Assembly (NCBI GenBank): GCA_020851035.1
Contig: JADZDM010000024.1
Span: 62,001-126,000, forward strand
Length of the DNA: 64,000 nt
DNA from: Gemmatimonadaceae bacterium
GTDB lineage: Bacteria > Gemmatimonadota > Gemmatimonadetes > Gemmatimonadales > Gemmatimonadaceae
Direction of reading: 5' to 3'
The notes beneath the pieces are model-generated. The model was not told where the DNA came from, searched no databases, and saw only the letters and a program-made list of their open reading frames with translations. Both the position numbers and the translations under genes were made by a program. Shown piece after piece: positions 27,271 through 36,452 of this stretch (positions are counted from its first letter, which is position 1; each line of letters opens with the position of its first letter).

Positions 27271-27978
27271 CTAGCCCGGTTCGACGTCGTCACGGAGCCG
27301 GTAGCCCACGCCGGGCTCGGTTTGCAGCAGCCGTGGCCGCGCGGTGTCGGCCTCGATCTTCCGCCGGAGCTGGGCCACCACCACGCGCAGGTTCTGCGTG
27401 TCGTCCACCACGTGGTTGCCCCAGACCTCGCGCACCAGCAGCCGCTGCGTGCAGACCATGCCGGCGTGCCGGATCAGGGTCGTGAGCAGCTTGTACTCGG
27501 TGGGGCTGAGGTGGGTTTCCTCGCCAGCCACGGTGACGAGGCGCCTGACGAGGTCCACCGCCAGGGTGCCGGCACGGAAGGTGGCCTGCGCCGGCTGCGT
27601 GGCCCGCGCGGCATGCCGCAGCGCCACGCGCATCCGCGCCAGCAGCTCTCCCACGCTGAACGGCTTCGTAAGGTAGTCGTCCGCCCCCGCGTCGAGCGCG
27701 GCGATCTTGTCGTTCTCCAGCTCCCGCGCCGACAGCACGATGATCGGCACGGCGCTCCACTCGCGGATGCGGCGGGTGGCGTCGAGGCCATCGCCGTCGG
27801 GGAGCCCGAGGTCGAGCAGGATCAGGTCGGGATTCCGCGCCGCGGCCTGCGCGAGGCCGTCGTGCATCGTCGCCGTCTCGACCAGCCGGTACTCGTGCGC
27901 GGGCAGCGCCGAGCGCAGGAAGCGCCGCATCTGCGGCTCGTCCTCGATGAGCAGGACCAGCGGGCCGGCCTGCGTCAT
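27271..27978 (-). CDS. kdpE: KdpE response regulator
   Basis: A 235-aa OmpR/PhoB-type response regulator. The receiver domain spans about residues 6-120: acidic pair IEDE at 11-14, phospho-acceptor Asp56 in LLDLGLPDGDG, and the conserved Lys105 in LTKPF. The winged-helix DNA-binding domain spans about 130-230 (LSPTEYKLLTTLIRHAGM, then HVVDDTQNLRVVVAQLRRKI). It is phosphorylated by KdpD, whose stop codon overlaps this start by 4 bases, and should activate the kdp operon at low potassium or osmotic stress. A candidate binding site with 11-bp direct repeats lies upstream of the operon at 36435-36452. Confidence 0.95.
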   Translation of the reverse strand: MTQAGPLVLLIEDEPQMRRFLRSALPAHEYRLVETATMHDGLAQAAARNPDLILLDLGLPDGDGLDATRRIREWSAVPIIVLSARELENDKIAALDAGADDYLTKPFSVGELLARMRVALRHAARATQPAQATFRAGTLAVDLVRRLVTVAGEETHLSPTEYKLLTTLIRHAGMVCTQRLLVREVWGNHVVDDTQNLRVVVAQLRRKIEADTARPRLLQTEPGVGYRLRDDVEPG

Positions 27979-30665
27979 GCGGTGACGTCGTCGTCGGGAC
28001 CGTCGTGGGGCATGCCGACAATGTGCGCCGGCGGCTCGCCGGCGGGCAACGAGAAGCGCACCACGGTGCCACCGCCGTCGCGCGCCTCGAGCCAGATCCT
28101 GCCGCCGTGCGCCAGCACGATGCCGCGACAGATGGTGAGCCCCAGCCCCACGCCCGGCGTCTCCGTCGAGTGCTCGATGCGGTGGAACTTGTCGAACACC
28201 GCCAGCGCCTGGCCCGGCGGGATGCCGATGCCGCGGTCACTCACGCTGACGGTCACGGTGTCGCGGGCTGCGGTGGCGCCGATCGCGATCGGCGAACCCG
28301 CCGGCGAGTACTTGAGCGCGTTCTCGAGCAGGTTGATGAGCACCTGCTCCACCAGGATCGCGTCGATGCAGACCAGCGGGAGTGCGACCGGCAGCGACAC
28401 GGTCACCTCGCGGCCGGCGAGGCGCTCGTCGAGTCGCAGCAACGCCACGCTCACCACCTCCTCCAGCGGCTGCCACTCCTGGTGCACGCTGAGCGCCCCG
28501 GTCTCGACGCGGATCATGTCGAGCAGGTTGCCGACCATGCGCGTCATGCGGCGCGATTCCTCCACGATCGCCTGCGCGAGGTCACGCCGGGTCTCGTCAC
28601 CGAGGGTGGTGCCGGCGTCCGCGAGGCTGCTGGCGGCACCCTCGATGGCGCCGAGCGGCGTGCGCAGGTCGTGCGAGAGGGAGCTGAGCAGCGACGTCCG
28701 CAGCCGCTCGGCCTCCACCTCCACGCGGGCCAGCTCGGTGCCCTCGGCGAGCCGCACCCGCTCGAGGGCGATGGCGGCCTGCGTGGCGAATGATTCCAGC
28801 AGCTGCCGGCGCGCCGGGTCCGACACGTCGCGCGGATCGGCCGGCGCCATCCGCAGCACGCCATGCGCCACGTCGGAGGCCACCAGCGGCAGGTAGAGCG
28901 CCGGGCTGGCCGGCAGGGTCTGCGTCCCCATGCCCGCCATCTGGCGGTGTTCGAAGGCCCAGCGCTCCACGCCGTCGTCGGAGTCCAGCGCGCCATCGTC
29001 GCGGCGCAGGCTCACCCGTGAGCTGCCCGGCACCACGCTGGTGCTGTGCCGCTCGAGCGCGGCCGAGATCTCCGCCGGTGCCCGCGCGGCGCTGAGGTCG
29101 GAGGAAAGCGAGAATGCGGCCGCGGTGCGCGCCTCCCGTGCGCGCGCGGCGTCGGCCTGCGCACGGAGCGTGCCCGTGAGCCGGCTCACCAGCACTGCCA
29201 CCACCAGCATCATCGCGAACGTGAGCAGGTAGTTCGCATCGCTCACCGCCAGCGTGTAGAACGGCGGCACGAAGCAGAGGTCGAACGCGAGGATCGCGAG
29301 CACCGAGGCGAACAGGGCGGGCCGGTACTGCGTGCGGCTGCCGATGATGGCGATGCCGAGGATGTAGAGCATCGCGACGTCGGTCGTGCTGACACGTGCA
29401 CGCAGCAGCAGGCCGATGGCGGTGACGATCCCCACCACCACCGTGGCCTGCAGGTAGCCGGACAGGCGCGGCGCCGGTGCATGCTGCGCCGCGGTGGCAC
29501 TGCCGTCCCCGCGCGGCGCATCGGCTGCGACCACCATCACGTCCACGCTGGTCACGCGCTGGGCCACGGCGTCCAGCAGTGACCGGCGCCAGGGCGCCCA
29601 GGCGCGCCGTCGGGGCTGGCCGAGCACCAGCCGGGTGACGTTGTTCGCCCCCACGAACCCGGCAACGGCATCGGCGACATCGTCGTTCGCGAGGGTCACG
29701 GCCCGCGCGCCGAGGCGCTCGGCCAGCTGCAGGTGTGCGGCCACCGTGGCGCGGTCGTCGTCGCTGAACCCGCCGGCCATCACCGGCTCCACGCTGAGCG
29801 CGATCCACTCGGCGTCGAGCGCCTCGGCGAGCCGGCGCGCGCGGCGCACGATGCGGTCGTCGTCGGGCCGGCGTCCCACGCACGCCAGCACGCGGTCGGT
29901 GGCGGCCCACGTGTCACGGATGCCGCTGCGCTGCATCCAGCCGCGCATGTCGGCGTCCACGCGCGACGCCGTGCGGCGCAGCGCCAGCTCGCGCAGCGCG
30001 AGCAGGTTCCCGCGGCGGAAGAACCGGTCCAGTGCGCGTGCCGCCTGCTCGGGCACGTACACCTTGCCGTCGCGCAGGCGCTCGATCAGCACCTCCGGCG
30101 ACACGTCCACCAGCTCGATCTCGTCGGCATGCTCGATCACGCTGTCAGGCACCGTCTCGCGGACGGTGATGCCGGTGACCTGCGCCACCACGTCGTTCAG
30201 GCTCTCGACGTGCTGCACGTTGAGGGTGCTGTAGACGTCGATCCCGGCGTCGAGCAGCTCGTCCACGTCCTGCCAGCGCTTGGCATGGCGGCTGCCGGGG
30301 GCGTTGGTGTGCGCCAGTTCGTCGAGCAGCAGGAGCGCGGGGCGGCGCGCCATGGCGGCGTCGAGGTCGAACTCCTCGAGCACGATGCCGCGGTGCTCCA
30401 CCGTCCGCCGCGGCAGGATGGGCAGCCCCTCGGTCAGGCGCTGCGTCTCGCGCCGCCCGTGCGTCTCCACGATGCCGATGACCACGTCCACGCCCTCGTC
30501 GCGACGGGCGGCGGCTGCCTCGAGCATCGTGAAGGTCTTGCCCACGCCCGGGGCCGCACCGAAGAACAGCTTGAACCGGCCGCGCGTGCGTGCCTCATCG
30601 CCCTCCTCACGCAGCCGGTGCAGCAACGCGTCAGGATCGGGGCGCCCGTCGCGCGGCTCGACCAT
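27975..30665 (-). CDS. kdpD: KdpD osmosensitive potassium-channel sensor kinase
   Basis: An 896-aa full-length KdpD. The N-terminal KdpD domain (about residues 28-235) has Walker A GAAPGVGKT at 36-44 and ALLLLDELAHTN. A universal-stress-protein domain lies at about 255-380. The four-helix DUF4118 membrane region is at about 403-500. A GAF-like segment follows at about 520-640. The histidine-kinase core has the phospho-acceptor His665 in SSLSHDLRTPLGA, the N box NLLENALKY and the G boxes DRGIGIPPG and GVGLGLTIC. It senses potassium and ionic stress in the inner membrane and phosphorylates KdpE. It starts 5 bases downstream of the porin-like gene stop and overlaps kdpE by 4 bases. Confidence 0.95.
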   Translation of the reverse strand: MVEPRDGRPDPDALLHRLREEGDEARTRGRFKLFFGAAPGVGKTFTMLEAAAARRDEGVDVVIGIVETHGRRETQRLTEGLPILPRRTVEHRGIVLEEFDLDAAMARRPALLLLDELAHTNAPGSRHAKRWQDVDELLDAGIDVYSTLNVQHVESLNDVVAQVTGITVRETVPDSVIEHADEIELVDVSPEVLIERLRDGKVYVPEQAARALDRFFRRGNLLALRELALRRTASRVDADMRGWMQRSGIRDTWAATDRVLACVGRRPDDDRIVRRARRLAEALDAEWIALSVEPVMAGGFSDDDRATVAAHLQLAERLGARAVTLANDDVADAVAGFVGANNVTRLVLGQPRRRAWAPWRRSLLDAVAQRVTSVDVMVVAADAPRGDGSATAAQHAPAPRLSGYLQATVVVGIVTAIGLLLRARVSTTDVAMLYILGIAIIGSRTQYRPALFASVLAILAFDLCFVPPFYTLAVSDANYLLTFAMMLVVAVLVSRLTGTLRAQADAARAREARTAAAFSLSSDLSAARAPAEISAALERHSTSVVPGSSRVSLRRDDGALDSDDGVERWAFEHRQMAGMGTQTLPASPALYLPLVASDVAHGVLRMAPADPRDVSDPARRQLLESFATQAAIALERVRLAEGTELARVEVEAERLRTSLLSSLSHDLRTPLGAIEGAASSLADAGTTLGDETRRDLAQAIVEESRRMTRMVGNLLDMIRVETGALSVHQEWQPLEEVVSVALLRLDERLAGREVTVSLPVALPLVCIDAILVEQVLINLLENALKYSPAGSPIAIGATAARDTVTVSVSDRGIGIPPGQALAVFDKFHRIEHSTETPGVGLGLTICRGIVLAHGGRIWLEARDGGGTVVRFSLPAGEPPAHIVGMPHDGPDDDVTA

Positions 30666-30670
30666 GCCGG

Positions 30671-31747
30671 TCAGAACGCCAGGCTGAGCGACGTCACGAG
30701 CAGGCGGTCACGTGACGACCCGATCGCGGCGCTGCCATGCGCGAGGAGCGGGGAGGAGGTGTGCAGCTCGCGCACCTCCGATCGCCAGCGCACGCCCTCA
30801 TCCAGTGTCACATCCACTCCCAGTGACCCGCCAGTGCCGGTGAATCCCGTCAGCAACCCCGTGCCGATGATCACCTGGTCGGGATCGGCATAGCGCTCGA
30901 GTCGCCCGACCACCGCCACCCGCGCGCTCACCGGCTGCCGCGCGATGCCGACGAGCCCATCCCAGCGCCGGCCACCCTGCGACCCGATGTCGACCTGGCC
31001 CTGCAACTGGGTGCCGGTGGGCAGCACTCCCTTCGCCATCACCTGGTGGAACTGCCGGAGCACGCCGCTGCCGCCGGTGGGGCGCTCGTTGCCGAAGAAG
31101 TTGGCGTAGCTGAGCGTGAGCGCAGGGGAGACGGCCACGTCGATCCGGCCGCCGACGGCCTTGGACCGGTTGTTCTCGGCGATGTTCTGCCAGCCGTTCA
31201 TCACGTGCGCCTGCGCGGTGACACGCGGTGTCGGCTGCCAGGTGAGCTTCACACCCGAGAGATAGTACGGCGAGTAGTCCGCCACCAGCGAGCGCGTGTA
31301 GGTGGGGTTGTCGGATGACGACCAGCCCTCGAGGCCGATGTAGCTCAGGTACACGCCGCCATCGACCCAGGCGTGATCGCCGAGCTTCACGCCGACCACG
31401 GCCTCCTGGATCATCCGTGCGACGTCGGGGCCGCTGGTGGGGCCGCTGCGTGGTTCGCCGGCGTAGTTGACCTGCACCGACGTGCCGGCCTGGATGGCGA
31501 ACCGTGCCCGGAGCGCGCGGCGCTCGACGGTCACGCCGAGCCAGGCGAGGTTCACGTTCACCTCGTCGTGGCGCACGGCCTGGGTGGTGAACTGCCGTTC
31601 GCCATCCACGGGCCGGTTGGAGTCCCAGGCGTAGTAGGTGTCGATGAAGCCGTTGAATCGGATGCGGGTGGCGGTGTCGGCCACCTGCGCGCCGAGGGCG
31701 CCGGTGAGCAGCGCGAGGGCGGCGGCGAGGCAGAGTGGGCGGATCAT
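30671..31747 (-). CDS. outer-membrane porin-like beta-barrel within the kdp operon
   Basis: A 358-aa outer-membrane barrel of the OmpL-like beta-barrel porin-2 (bbp2) type. The signal peptide is MIRPLCLAAALALLTGALGA, cleaved near residue 20. The mature part starts RIRFNGFIDTYYAWDSNRP and has alternating amphipathic strands, ending in LSLAF with a terminal Phe. The ATG at 31747 overlaps the kdpC stop codon by 4 bases (ATGA), and its own stop lies 5 bases before kdpD. It is therefore translated as part of the kdp operon. I infer it may let potassium or small osmolytes cross the outer membrane for the Kdp pump; direct evidence for this is lacking. Confidence 0.82.
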   Translation of the reverse strand: MIRPLCLAAALALLTGALGAQVADTATRIRFNGFIDTYYAWDSNRPVDGERQFTTQAVRHDEVNVNLAWLGVTVERRALRARFAIQAGTSVQVNYAGEPRSGPTSGPDVARMIQEAVVGVKLGDHAWVDGGVYLSYIGLEGWSSSDNPTYTRSLVADYSPYYLSGVKLTWQPTPRVTAQAHVMNGWQNIAENNRSKAVGGRIDVAVSPALTLSYANFFGNERPTGGSGVLRQFHQVMAKGVLPTGTQLQGQVDIGSQGGRRWDGLVGIARQPVSARVAVVGRLERYADPDQVIIGTGLLTGFTGTGGSLGVDVTLDEGVRWRSEVRELHTSSPLLAHGSAAIGSSRDRLLVTSLSLAF

Positions 31748-32364
31748 GGTGTCATGGTGGGACGAAGAGTCGGGGCCGGCGCGGCGGTCGCGGGGAGGGC
31801 GTCGAGCGCGAGATTGACCTGCAGCACGTTCACGCGTGGTTCGCCGAGCAAGCCGAAGGTACGTGTTGCCGTGCCGGCGTCCACGGCCTGCCGCACGACC
31901 CGGGGGTCCAGGCCGCGGGCCTGCGCGATGCGCGCCACCTGCAGGTCGGCCGCCGCCGGCGACAGGTGGGGATCGAGCCCGCTGCCCGAGGCCGTGACGA
32001 GGTCCGCCGGCACCGGCGTGTCGCCAGCGTCGCCGGCGGCGCGGATGCTGGCCACCCGGGCCCGCACCAGGCTGTCGAGGGCAGGGTTGGTCGGGCCGAG
32101 GTTGGAGCCGGCACTGCCGCGCGCATCGTACGGCCGTGCGATGGCCGACGGGCGACCCCACAGGTAGCGCGGGCTGGTGAATGACTGGCCCACCAGCAGC
32201 GAGCCGCGCACCGTGTCGCGCACGGTGATGAGTGATCCGCGCGACCGCACGGGGAAGGCGGTGGCCGCGATGCCGGTGACCGCGACGGGATACACGATTC
32301 CTGTCAGGAGGGAGAGCACGCCGAGGGCGCGGAGTCCGGGGAGCAGGTCGGGGCGAAGGGACAT
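31744..32364 (-). CDS. kdpC: potassium-transporting ATPase subunit KdpC
   Basis: A 206-aa KdpC, the small subunit that stabilises the KdpFABC complex. One N-terminal helix (about residues 14-35) leads to the periplasmic domain with GSLLVGQSFTSPRYLWGRPS, SAGSNLGPTNP, and the C-terminal HLSPAAADLQVARIAQARGL and VNVLQVNLALD blocks, all diagnostic of KdpC. The start at 32364 is 7 bases after the kdpB stop. The 3' end overlaps the porin-like gene by 4 bases. The extra C-terminal tail (PATAAPAPTLRPTMTP) is Ala/Pro/Thr-rich and longer than usual. Confidence 0.95.
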   Translation of the reverse strand: MSLRPDLLPGLRALGVLSLLTGIVYPVAVTGIAATAFPVRSRGSLITVRDTVRGSLLVGQSFTSPRYLWGRPSAIARPYDARGSAGSNLGPTNPALDSLVRARVASIRAAGDAGDTPVPADLVTASGSGLDPHLSPAAADLQVARIAQARGLDPRVVRQAVDAGTATRTFGLLGEPRVNVLQVNLALDALPATAAPAPTLRPTMTP

Positions 32365-32371
32365 GCGAACC

Positions 32372-34444
32372 TCAGGTGAGGTGCAGCGCCACGAGGGCGC
32401 GGTCGATGAGCCAGCTGCCGGCGAACGGCGCGGCCAGCCCGCCGAGGCCGTACACCAGCAGGTTGCGGCGCAGGATCGCCGCTGCACCGAGCGGGCGGTA
32501 CGTCACGCCGCGGAGCGCCAGCGGGATGAGCGCCACGATCACCAGCGCGTTGAAGATCACCGCCGAGAGCACCGCGCTCTGCGGTGTGGCGAGCCCCATC
32601 ACGTTGAGGCGGTTCAGCGCGGGGTAGGTGGTGGCGAAGGCGGCGGGAATGATCGCGAAGTACTTCGCGACGTCGTTCGCGAGGCTGAAGGTGGTGAGCG
32701 AGCCGCGCGTCATGAGCATCTGCTTCCCGGTCTCGACGATCTCGATCAGCTTGGTGGGGTTGGAGTCGAGGTCCACCATGTTGCCCGCCTCCTTCGCCGC
32801 CTGCGTGCCGGAGTTCATCGCGACCGCGACGTCGGCCTGGGCCAGCGCGGGTGCGTCGTTGGTGCCGTCGCCGGTCATCGCGACCAGCCTGCCGCCGGCC
32901 TGGTACTCGCGGATGAGCCGCAGCTTGGCTTCCGGCGTCGCCTCGGCAAGGAAGTCGTCCACCCCCGCCTCGGCGGCGATGGCCGCGGCCGTGAGCGGGT
33001 TGTCCCCGGTGATCATCACGGTCTTGATGCCCATCCGCCGCAGCTCGGCGAAGCGTTCGCGGATGCCACCCTTCACGATGTCCTTGAGCTGGATCACGCC
33101 GAGCACGCGCGGGCCGTCGGCCACCACCAGCGGTGTGCTGCCGGCGCGGGCCACCTCCGTGACCGCGGCGGCGACATCCGGCGGCACGGTGCCGCCGTGC
33201 GACGTCACGAGGCGTGCGATCGAGTCCGCCGCGCCCTTCCGGATGGAGCGCGTGCCGAAGTCCACCCCGCTGCTGCGGGTCTCGGCCGTGAACGGGACGA
33301 ACGTCGCCTCGCCCACGGCGAACGAGTGCTCGCGCAGCTCGTGCAGTGTCTTCGCCAGCACCACGATGCTCCGCCCCTCCGGCGTCTCGTCGGCCAGTGA
33401 CGCCAGCTGTGCCGCCTCGGCCAGCTCGCGCTCCGGCACGCCGGCCGCAGGAATGAAGCGTGACGCCTGCCGGTTGCCGAGCGTGATGGTGCCCGTCTTG
33501 TCGAGCATCAGGACGTCCACGTCGCCGGCCGCCTCCACGGCGCGGCCCGAGGTCGCGAGCACGTTCTGGCGCAGCATGCGGTCCATCCCTGCGATGCCGA
33601 TCGCCGACAGCAACCCGCCGATGGTGGTCGGGATGAGGCAGACGAGCAGCGCCACCAGCACCGTCAGCGTCACCGGCACGCCGCTGCCGGCGGCGGTCAC
33701 GCTGAACCGGGAGTAGGGCAGCAGCGTTGCGCAGACCAGCAGGAAGATGATCGTGAGCGCGGCCAGCAGGATCGCCAGCGCGATCTCGTTCGGCGTCTTC
33801 TGCCGGTGTGCCGCCTCGATCAGGCCGATCATCCGGTCGAGGAAGCTCTCACCGGGGTTGGCGGCGATGCGCACCACGATCCAGTCCGAGAGCACGCGGG
33901 TGCCGCCGGTCACGGCGCTGCGGTCGCCGCCAGCCTCGCGGATCACCGGTGCACTCTCGCCGGTGACCGCACTCTCGTCCACGCTCGCGATGCCCTCGAT
34001 GATCTCGCCATCGCCGGGGATCACGTCGCCCGCCACCACGTATACCACGTCGCCCTTGCGCAGCGTCGCCGCGGCCACGCTCTCGATCACCAGGTGATTC
34101 GCGGGATCGTCGAGCTTCCGGGCCATCACGTCGCGCCGCGTGGCCTTCAGAGCATCAGCCTGTGCCTTGCCGCGGCCCTCGGCCAGCGCCTCGGCGAGGT
34201 TCGCGAACAGCACCGTGAACCAGAGCCAGGCGGCGATGGCCCACACGAACGCGGGCGAGCCCTCCGTCACGCGGCCCGTGCTCGCGAGAAGGGCCAGGAT
34301 CGTGGTCGCGATGCTGCCGACGAAGACCACGAACATCACCGGGTTCCGTACCTGAGAGCGGGGGTCGAGCTTGGCGAATGCGGCGAGGATGCCGGCCCTT
34401 AGTTGCCCGGACCGCACCAGCCCGGTCCGTTCATGCGTGGACAT
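32372..34444 (-). CDS. kdpB: potassium-transporting ATPase ATP-binding subunit KdpB
   Basis: A 690-aa P-type ATPase that energises K+ uptake by KdpA. The A-domain motif TGES is at 161-164, the phosphorylation site is Asp315 in DKTGT, and the hinge motif [12 protein letters not shown] is near residue 525. Membrane helices carry the KdpB-specific [20 protein letters not shown] segment at 270-289. It begins 2 bases after the kdpA stop (start at 34444) and is followed by kdpC. Length is normal. The conserved Ser in TGES (inhibitory phosphorylation in E. coli KdpB) is present. Confidence 0.97.
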
Positions 34445-34446
34445 GG

Positions 34447-36180
34447 TCAGCGCCCTCCCTGCTGGAGCTGTTCGACCACCGGCCCGAGTGCCAGCGCCGG
34501 CAGGAAGGTGAGTGCCCCCACCAGCAGCACGGTGCCGATGAGCAGGGCGGTGAAGAGCGGAGTGTGCGTCGGCAGCGTGCCCGCGCCGGCCGGCACCCGC
34601 TTCTTCTGCGCCAGGCTGCCGGCGATGGCCAGCACGGGGATGATCACGCCGAATCGCCCGACCCACATCACCACCGCGAGCAGCACGTTGTAGAATGGCG
34701 TGTTCACCGACAGCCCGCCGAAGGCGCTGCCGTTGTTGTTGCTGGCGGAGCTGAGTGCGTAGAGGACCTCGGTGAAGCCGTGGGCGCCTGGGTTCAGGAT
34801 GCCGGAACGTCCCGCCTGCGTCCCCACGGCGAGTGCCGTGCCAAGCAGCACCGCCGCCGACGGCAGCAGGATCACCAGCGCCGACATCTTCATCTCGAAG
34901 GCCTCGATCTTCTTGCCGAGGTACTCGGGCGTGCGTCCCACCATCAGCCCGGCGATGAACACCGTGATGAGTGCGAACACCAGCATGCCGTACAACCCGC
35001 TGCCGGCGCCCCCGTAGACGATCTCGCCGAGCTGCATGAGCCAGGTCGGAGCGAGGCCGCCAAGCGGCGTGAAGCTGTCGTGCATGGCATTCACCGACCC
35101 GTTCGACGCGGCGGTGGTGGCGGTGGCCCAGAGGGCGCTGTTGACGATGCCGAAGCGCACCTCCTTGCCTTCCATGTTGCCGCCGGCCTGGGTGGCGGTG
35201 GCATCGGCCATCACGCCGGCCCGTGCCAGCAGCGGCGTGCCGGCCTGCTCGGCAGCGATGGTGCCCACCGCGAGCGGCGTGAAGATCATCGTCATCGCGG
35301 CCAGGATCGCCCACCCCTGTCGCATGTCACCCACGATTGCGCCGAAGGTGCAGCAGAGGGCGGCGGGGATCAGCAGGATCGCGACCAGTTGCAGCAGGTT
35401 GGAGAGCGGGGTGGGGTTCTCGAGGGGATGCGCGCTGTTCACGCTGAAGAACCCGCCGCCGTTGGTGCCCAGCTGCTTGATCGCCACCTGGCTGGCGGCG
35501 GGGCCCAGCGGGATCACCTGCGTGGCGGTCGGGTCGGGCGCGGCGTCGAGCACGTGGGCCGTGGCGGGGGCGTCGAAGGTCTGCACCACGCCCTCGCCGG
35601 CCAGCGCCACCGCGAGCACGAGGGACAGCGGCAGCAGCACATGCACCGTCCCGCGCACGAGGTCCACCCGGAAGTCACCGATGGTGCCACGCTCGGCGCG
35701 GGTGAAGGCGCGCACCAGCGCAGCCAGCACCGCCATGCCGGCCGCCGCCGAGACGAAGTTCTGCGTGCCGAGCGCCAGCATCTGCGTGAGGTACGACATC
35801 GTGCCCTCACCGCCGTAGGCCTGCCAGTTGGTGTTGGTGACGAAGCTGATCGCGGTGTTCAGCGCCAGCGTCGGTTCGACGGCACCGAGGGCCAGCGGAT
35901 TGAGCGGCAGGAGACCCTGCAGCCGCTGCAGCGCGTAGACCAGCAACACGCCGGCTGCGCTGAACAGCAGCACCTGCCGGGCATAGGCAGCCCATCCCGT
36001 CTCGCTGTCGGCGGAAACGCCGGTGAGGCGCAGGCAGAGTCGCTCGAGTGGTGCGAGCAGCGGCGAGAGGATGGTGCGCTGGCCCTGGTAGACGCGCGCC
36101 ATGTACACGCCGAGCGGGTGCGCGGCGAGGAGCACGAGGGCGATGAAGAGGGCGGATTGCAGCCAGGCGGAGCGCGTCAT
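34447..36180 (-). CDS. kdpA: potassium-transporting ATPase subunit KdpA
   Basis: A 577-aa polytopic channel-like subunit that binds and conducts K+. The selectivity-filter-like segments are [46 protein letters not shown] and [13 protein letters not shown], each carrying the Gly/Asn residues typical of the four pore loops. The start at 36180 overlaps the kdpF stop (ATGA) and the stop is 2 bases before kdpB. Ten or so membrane helices are predicted. Complete and of normal length. Confidence 0.97.
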
Positions 36181-36269
36181 CCGAGGCGCTCCGGCGCCAG
36201 CAGCGCATGGATCAGGTAGGCCAGCAGCGCGAGGACGACCAGCGCGGCGATGATGTCGGTCAGCGGCAT
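36177..36269 (-). CDS. kdpF: potassium-transporting ATPase subunit KdpF
   Basis: A 30-aa one-helix membrane peptide, too short for most gene finders: MPLTDIIAALVVLALLAYL followed by [11 protein letters not shown]. The Tyr-Leu-x-x-Ala-Leu-Leu-x-Pro-Glu-Arg ending is the KdpF signature, and KdpF stabilises the KdpFABC complex. Its stop codon overlaps the kdpA start by 4 bases, confirming the reading frame and translational coupling. Confidence 0.88.
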   Translation of the reverse strand: MPLTDIIAALVVLALLAYLIHALLAPERLG

Positions 36270-36276
36270 GGTCGGC

Positions 36277-36357
36277 TCAGCGGCGCGCGAGGGCGCGGAC
36301 GGCGAGGAGCGACAGCGCCAGCAGCGCGCCGGCCACCAGCAGTACGACGAGGTCCAT
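36277..36357 (-). CDS. 26-aa membrane micropeptide upstream of kdpF
   Basis: A short frame starting at the ATG at 36357 with GGAG eight bases upstream: one hydrophobic helix (MDLVVLLVAGALLALSLLAV) and a basic tail RALARR. It ends 7 bases before kdpF and is the first reading frame of the kdp transcript. The helix-plus-basic-tail design, the RBS and the packing with kdpF favour a real gene. I do not know a family for it; it could be an extra regulatory or stabilising peptide of the Kdp complex or a leader peptide. Confidence 0.6.
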   Translation of the reverse strand: MDLVVLLVAGALLALSLLAVRALARR

Positions 36358-36434
36358 CGGTATCTCCGTCGGGAAGGGAACTCCCTCAGGTTACCGGTGG
36401 CGGCGTGAGCGCCGTGCGAGACTTCGGGTGGCGG

Positions 36435-36452
36435 GTGTGAGAGAAGTGTGAG
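36435..36452. promoter_or_regulatory. direct repeat with 11-bp period upstream of the kdp operon
   Basis: The heptamer GTGTGAG occurs at 36435-36441 and 36446-36452, i.e. CTCACAC-TTCT-CTCACAC on the operon strand, with one helical turn between repeats. OmpR/PhoB-family regulators such as KdpE bind tandem half-sites spaced 11 bp apart. It lies about 80 bases upstream of the first operon start codon. Confidence 0.4.

Follow-up and report, generated by a model that had tools for sequence, protein, structure and literature searches.

The analysed DNA, here called the window, is a stretch of 64,000 nucleotides from a soil bacterium of the Gemmatimonadaceae. On its reverse strand it carries a complete kdp gene set in which a gene for an outer-membrane porin of the BBP2 family is inserted between kdpC and kdpD. 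The genes form one directon in the order microprotein, kdpF, kdpA, kdpB, kdpC, porin, kdpD and kdpE, and all junctions within it are either overlaps or short gaps (Table 1). This anatomy is shown by the sequence. No terminator was found in a search within the operon, and a simple sigma-70 scan of the region returned nothing. A joint transcript of kdpC, the porin gene and kdpD is inferred from an ATGA overlap, a 5-base gap and the absence of an internal terminator.

Table 1. Features of the kdp region in the window.
Feature	Positions	Strand	Description
kdpE	27271..27978	-	OmpR-family response regulator; 4-base overlap with the end of kdpD
kdpD	27975..30665	-	full-length sensor kinase, 896 aa; PF02702 N-terminal sensor domain (324 bits), DUF4118, HisKA, HATPase
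BBP2 outer-membrane porin	30671..31747	-	358 aa, from ATG to TGA; open reading frame matching PF07642 in Pfam (E=5.7e-65)
kdpC	31744..32364	-	206 aa; PF02669, 228 bits; 4-base overlap with the porin ATG
kdpB	32373..34444	-	P-type ATPase subunit; TIGR01497, 1048 bits
kdpA	34447..36180	-	K+ translocating subunit; PF03814, 783 bits
kdpF	36177..36269	-	30 aa membrane peptide; ATGA overlap with the kdpA start; similar peptides in the same place in relatives
Microprotein	36277..36357	-	26 aa, single helix, MDLVVLLVAGALLALSLLAVRALARR; immediately ahead of kdpF
Putative KdpE operator	36404..36452	-	half-sites CTCACA, CTCACA, CTCGCA and CTCACG at offsets 0, 11, 32 and 43

Peptides similar to the microprotein were observed at the same position in most kdp operons of Gemmatimonadota and KSB1 bacteria that encode a full KdpD, and it is possible that this microprotein is a second small Kdp subunit.

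The porin was identified as a member of BBP2 (PF07642, TC 1.B.66) by a match of 220.2 bits, at a cut-off of 26.2, which spans profile positions 2-317 of 339 and is thus near full length. This family membership is shown, while the beta-barrel fold and the formation of a pore are inferred from it. Inspection of the sequence revealed features of an exported outer-membrane protein, namely a hydrophobic N-terminal signal (MIRPLCLAAALALLTGALGA) ending in ALGA/Q and a C-terminal Phe; among relatives in the Gemmatimonadota, 36 of 52 end in F or Y. The PDB search by sequence with the porin yielded no relative. The genome of 4.97 Mb contains a single BBP2 gene, the kdp-linked one.

At the 5'-end of the porin gene, the ATG (31747-31745) and the kdpC stop codon (31746-31744) share the four bases ATGA, and no clear ribosome site was detected ahead of the porin start. 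Re-initiation after translation of kdpC is therefore likely, which is consistent with coupling to kdpC. At the other end, five bases (30666-30670) separate the porin stop codon from the kdpD ATG. The first-pass annotation had placed a bbp2-type barrel between kdpC and kdpD, with a 4-base overlap on one side and a 5-base distance on the other, and this held on the basis of the ORF coordinates and Pfam; its suggestion of translational coupling to KdpC remains an inference that fits the ATGA overlap and the lack of a clear ribosome site.

An operator-like array of four half-sites was located upstream of kdpF, 272 bases 5' of kdpA. The array was scored by the mutual likeness of four half-sites at offsets 0, 11, 32 and 43; the window array reached a score of 30 compared with a shuffle mean of 20.2, and none of 200 dinucleotide shuffles scored as high. 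Upstream regions of relatives with full KdpD and KdpE contain YTTGAY as a direct repeat; its period is 11 bases, and another pair follows at a distance of 32 bases. The window and these relatives agree in the spacing and position of the array but differ in the sequence of the half-sites. The strict YTTGAY pair was present before kdpA in 8 of 13 kdpA-first loci with full KdpD and absent from all of the 53 split-KdpD loci, 23 porin-kdpA junctions and 65 internal porins, at a background of about 0.007 per 500 bases. Among six porin-first loci, the array lies upstream of the porin gene and not of kdpA in L211, in L162 and, weakly, in L218; none was seen in L153, L156 and L217. The array itself is shown by sequence. 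Its reading as a KdpE-type operator that covers the porin gene as well as kdp is inferred from sequence, without data on KdpE binding.

A different arrangement of the sensor was observed in most Gemmatimonadota kdp loci (L061-L096, e.g. L065, L067 and L077), where KdpD is split: kdpE and a separate kinase gene are located 5' of kdpA, and the porin gene is followed by only the N-terminal sensor part of KdpD, about 380 aa in length. These split-sensor loci are without the YTTGAY array.

The linkage between kdp and BBP2 genes recurs far beyond the window, as shown by surveys of four phyla, which are based on sampled species and do not represent independent draws. In 200 genomes of Gemmatimonadota, BBP2 was the next same-strand gene after kdpC in 29 of 37 cases (about 0.03 expected by chance). 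Bacteroidota kdp loci contain it directly after kdpC in 17 of 55 cases and nearby in 5 more. In Myxococcota it directly precedes kdpA in 32 of 63 kdp loci, with 1 additional case after kdpC and 4 divergent ones, and in Acidobacteriota the position directly before kdpA is occupied in 10 of 47 loci, with 2 others. A scan of named genomes using the family alignment added the order kdpC-porin-kdpD in KSB1 bacteria, Mucilaginibacter and one Acidobacteria MAG. The named-genome scan also found a porin gene directly 5' of kdpA in Elusimicrobia, Bdellovibrionota and Myxococcota; the KSB1, Elusimicrobia and Bdellovibrionota genomes are MAGs. Cultured carriers include Mucilaginibacter roseus (L175) and, with the porin gene ahead of kdpA, Corallococcus terminator (L177) and Hyalangium versicolor (L183). 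In total, the linkage was found in at least seven phyla, in varied slots and with varied BBP2 subfamilies. Nearby BBP2 genes are missing from about 20% of the kdp loci in Gemmatimonadota, from more than half in Bacteroidota and from about three quarters in Acidobacteriota, and with so many kdp loci lacking it, the porin must be dispensable at the species level.

The position of the porin gene is variable. It sits between kdpB and kdpC in L236, after kdpE in L237, divergent from kdpA in L213 and L214, and in inverted orientation between kdpC and kdpD in L221, and two porin genes occur within one kdp operon in L210. A tree of 141 BBP2 proteins distributed the kdp-linked members over several clades, and this label required 25 changes, 20 of which are forced by well-supported branches; the tree was a quick one, and the placement of long branches is unsure. 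All tree neighbours of the window porin are kdp-linked. A clade of BBP2 proteins of about 450 aa from Gemmatimonadota, Bacteroidota, Myxococcota and Acidobacteriota was confined to kdp or kdpDE-type loci, including one locus (L114) where the gene lies beside a kdpE and kinase pair in a genome in which no kdpABC was found. Since slot, orientation and BBP2 subfamily all vary, the pattern points to recurrent recruitment and not to a single frozen order.

Two further gene arrangements were recorded during this comparison. In the Bacteroidota locus L228 (G377), kdpABC, a BBP2 porin gene, a kup gene and kdpD form a single run, and in the Kdp-like clusters L235, L249, L250 and L094 kdpC is located ahead of kdpA, as opposed to the usual order A-B-C.

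The same family was also shown, by sequence, to adjoin other uptake systems. Close relatives of the window porin are encoded divergently from kup in Gemmatimonadota (L104 and L136), and a BBP2 gene lies directly 3' of kup in the Bacteroidota locus L240; the Kup assignment was confirmed by Pfam K_trans. Genes for ammonium transporters, often accompanied by PII, neighbour BBP2 in ten Gemmatimonadota loci (L097-L101, L106, L109, L110, L112 and L113), and further BBP2-Amt loci were found in Bacteroidota (L242-L245) and Acidobacteriota (L222 and L224). Among 88 strong BBP2 genes of Bacteroidota, 23 are located in kdp loci, while amt lies within 2 kb of at least 27 and kup within the same distance of 3. 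One gene falls into two of these groups, so that at least 52 of the 88 adjoin kdp, amt or kup, where fewer than 1 would be expected; for about 40% of these strong Bacteroidota genes none of kdp, amt and kup was nearby. As proteins, Kdp, Kup and Amt are not related; all they have in common is their substrate class, and the partners of BBP2 thus point to K+/NH4+, two ions of similar ionic radius (PMC4016748). The pairing of BBP2 with PII and/or Amt (L242, L243, L097-L101 and L109-L113) would, as an inference from gene context, indicate that ammonium has an outer-membrane step of its own. In Kuenenia, a BBP2 gene is reported to be strongly induced under ammonium limitation (PMC7438415).

Some BBP2 genes were observed in other settings. 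In L105 (6955-8103) the BBP2 gene is divergent from an apparent glutamine synthetase gene, and PII was matched close by. In L168, L169 and L176, BBP2 genes of a separate clade are located 3' of a methyltransferase-like gene, with a SURF1-like gene near in L168 and L176; no K+ or NH4+ transporter was found near in these three neighbourhoods. Plasmid relatives in Rufibacter and Hymenobacter were set aside, being located outside kdp and annotated merely as "porin".

The BBP2 tree contains at least five partner switches between K+ and NH4+. Two alignment columns that differ between K+- and NH4+-linked barrels (S135/T135 and Q187/D187) were considered as substrate determinants and rejected, as they follow the clade and not the partner; six kdp-linked members of amt-rich clades retain T135 and have D or N (one W) at 187. 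Partner switching together with columns that track the clade looks as if one pore could serve both K+ and NH4+, a possibility inferred from sequence. The net charge of the mature window porin is about +2, with a slightly negative mean for the BBP2 family, and the comparison of linked with unlinked barrels gave no clear selectivity signal, cation selectivity included.

These results bear on the remaining claims of the first-pass annotation. Its proposal of a function shared with Kdp is supported by the predicted position of the porin gene under the same operator-like array and by the recurrence of the linkage in at least seven phyla. It had named random gene order in relatives as a refutation, and the survey of kdp operons for bbp2 found that the order is not random. 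The proposed passage of K+ across the outer membrane is supported by the Kup and Amt neighbours but had to be corrected to the class K+/NH4+ instead of selectivity for K+, with conductance remaining inferred. A second correction concerns the spread of the arrangement, which is common to many bacteria and not peculiar to the organism of the window.

In a few cases, other proteins were found in or near places that the porin takes elsewhere. An Acidobacteriota kdp locus without BBP2 (L264, 7007-7795) has a TorF-family putative porin (TIGR02001) in the kdpC-kdpD slot, and in Aquabacterium olei a TorF gene adjoins an ammonium transporter gene. Proteins that carry a signal peptide and are each about 240 aa long are encoded 5' of kdpA in the Acidobacteriota loci L261 (2506-3204, adjacent) and L263 (1790-2545, about 0.7 kb away); they have no Pfam family, and it is conceivable that they are further outer-membrane partners. 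The TorF and small-protein observations are single cases.

It is likely that the window porin acts as the outer-membrane stage of a high-affinity system for K+ uptake across two membranes and serves Kdp, with conductance, selectivity, co-transcription and a benefit at low K+ being inferred. According to this model, K+ limitation would cause KdpD/KdpE to turn on kdpF-A-B-C-porin-D-E from the operator-like array 5' of kdpF, and translation of the porin would be coupled to that of kdpC via ATGA. The barrel would then be exported and inserted into the outer membrane, where K+, and likely NH4+ too, would find a path of low resistance, probably with a preference for cations, into the periplasm. KdpFABC would thereby not be limited by diffusion across an outer membrane that possibly lacks abundant general porins; the scarcity of general porins in these phyla is likewise an inference.

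Three alternative explanations were considered. The first regards the barrel as a general, non-selective porin: under K+ limitation or osmotic stress the outer membrane would have to be more permeable overall, hence the co-expression with Kdp, and K+ would pass along with anything small. It draws support from a published family tree (PMC4827864), in which BBP2 groups with OprB and Opr, both general porins, and from the missing charge signature of cation selectivity. However, the only recurrent partners are K+ and NH4+ uptake systems, and the inspected neighbours showed no repeated occurrence of any other transporter class, which makes this explanation unlikely. The second, for which the case is weaker still, takes the barrel to be a sensor or structural partner and not mainly a channel, either reporting external K+ or the state of the envelope to KdpD or tethering KdpFABC across the periplasm. 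The barrel gene does adjoin kdpD in Gemmatimonadota, even where kdpD is reduced to its N-terminal sensor part, but its place is before kdpA and away from kdpD in Myxococcota, Acidobacteriota, Elusimicrobia and Bdellovibrionota, and its sister genes accompany Kup and Amt, systems without a KdpD. Hitch-hiking, that is, chance capture in the operon and retention for convenient co-expression without a functional link, can appeal to overlaps and short gaps being usual in compact operons but is practically ruled out by the repeated independent association over several phyla, slots, orientations and BBP2 subfamilies, for which fewer than 1 case would be expected by chance in each survey.

The preferred reading, a porin serving Kdp, can be extended to the whole BBP2 family, whose members would then be channels by which small monovalent cations enter through the outer membrane, each wired to the Kdp, Kup or Amt of its host, with K+ and NH4+ partners swapping within clades and TorF able to fill the same place. 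The balance of evidence tips only slightly towards this bolder reading, in which conduction is inferred. Models of Kdp end at the inner membrane, and the passage of K+ across the outer membrane has been assumed from E. coli. If the reading for Kdp is true, K+ and, via the sister genes, NH4+ have a dedicated and co-regulated channel in the outer membrane of many diderm phyla; BBP2 would gain a substrate class, and the outer membrane would become a testable control point in nutrient scavenging. If the bolder reading is true, much of the diderm bacteria scavenges K+ and NH4+ with a dedicated and regulated component at the outer membrane. Because partners switch inside clades, BBP2 also offers a natural experiment on the discrimination between K+ and NH4+.

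No description of a kdp-linked porin was found in the literature searched, which covered few subscription journals, so that an earlier notice is not excluded. The component families are known, while the Kdp arrangement with an outer-membrane component is new and the family-wide substrate assignment is apparently new. With BBP2 as listed under TC 1.B.66 and PF07642 (OmpL-like putative porin), the window protein shares the full-length match, the signal peptide and the C-terminal aromatic residue; substrate, structure and function of the family are listed as unknown (PMC4827864), whereas the substrate class put forward for it here rests on gene context. KSMBR1_3177 of Kuenenia stuttgartiensis is also a BBP2 gene and is reported to be induced when a small monovalent cation is limiting (PMC7438415), but the cation is ammonium and not potassium, and the observation is a lone expression result that was not set in the context of the family. 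The TorF/Gcw_chp putative porins (TIGR02001, PF09694) belong to an unrelated family of about 260 aa and occupy the same kdpC-kdpD slot in L264. KdpFABC-KdpDE of Escherichia coli has the same pump subunits, KdpF, sensor kinase and response regulator, with the order A-B-C-D-E as in the window. E. coli relies on abundant general porins. Unlike the window, E. coli, used as a control genome, has no BBP2 and no porin in its kdp operon.
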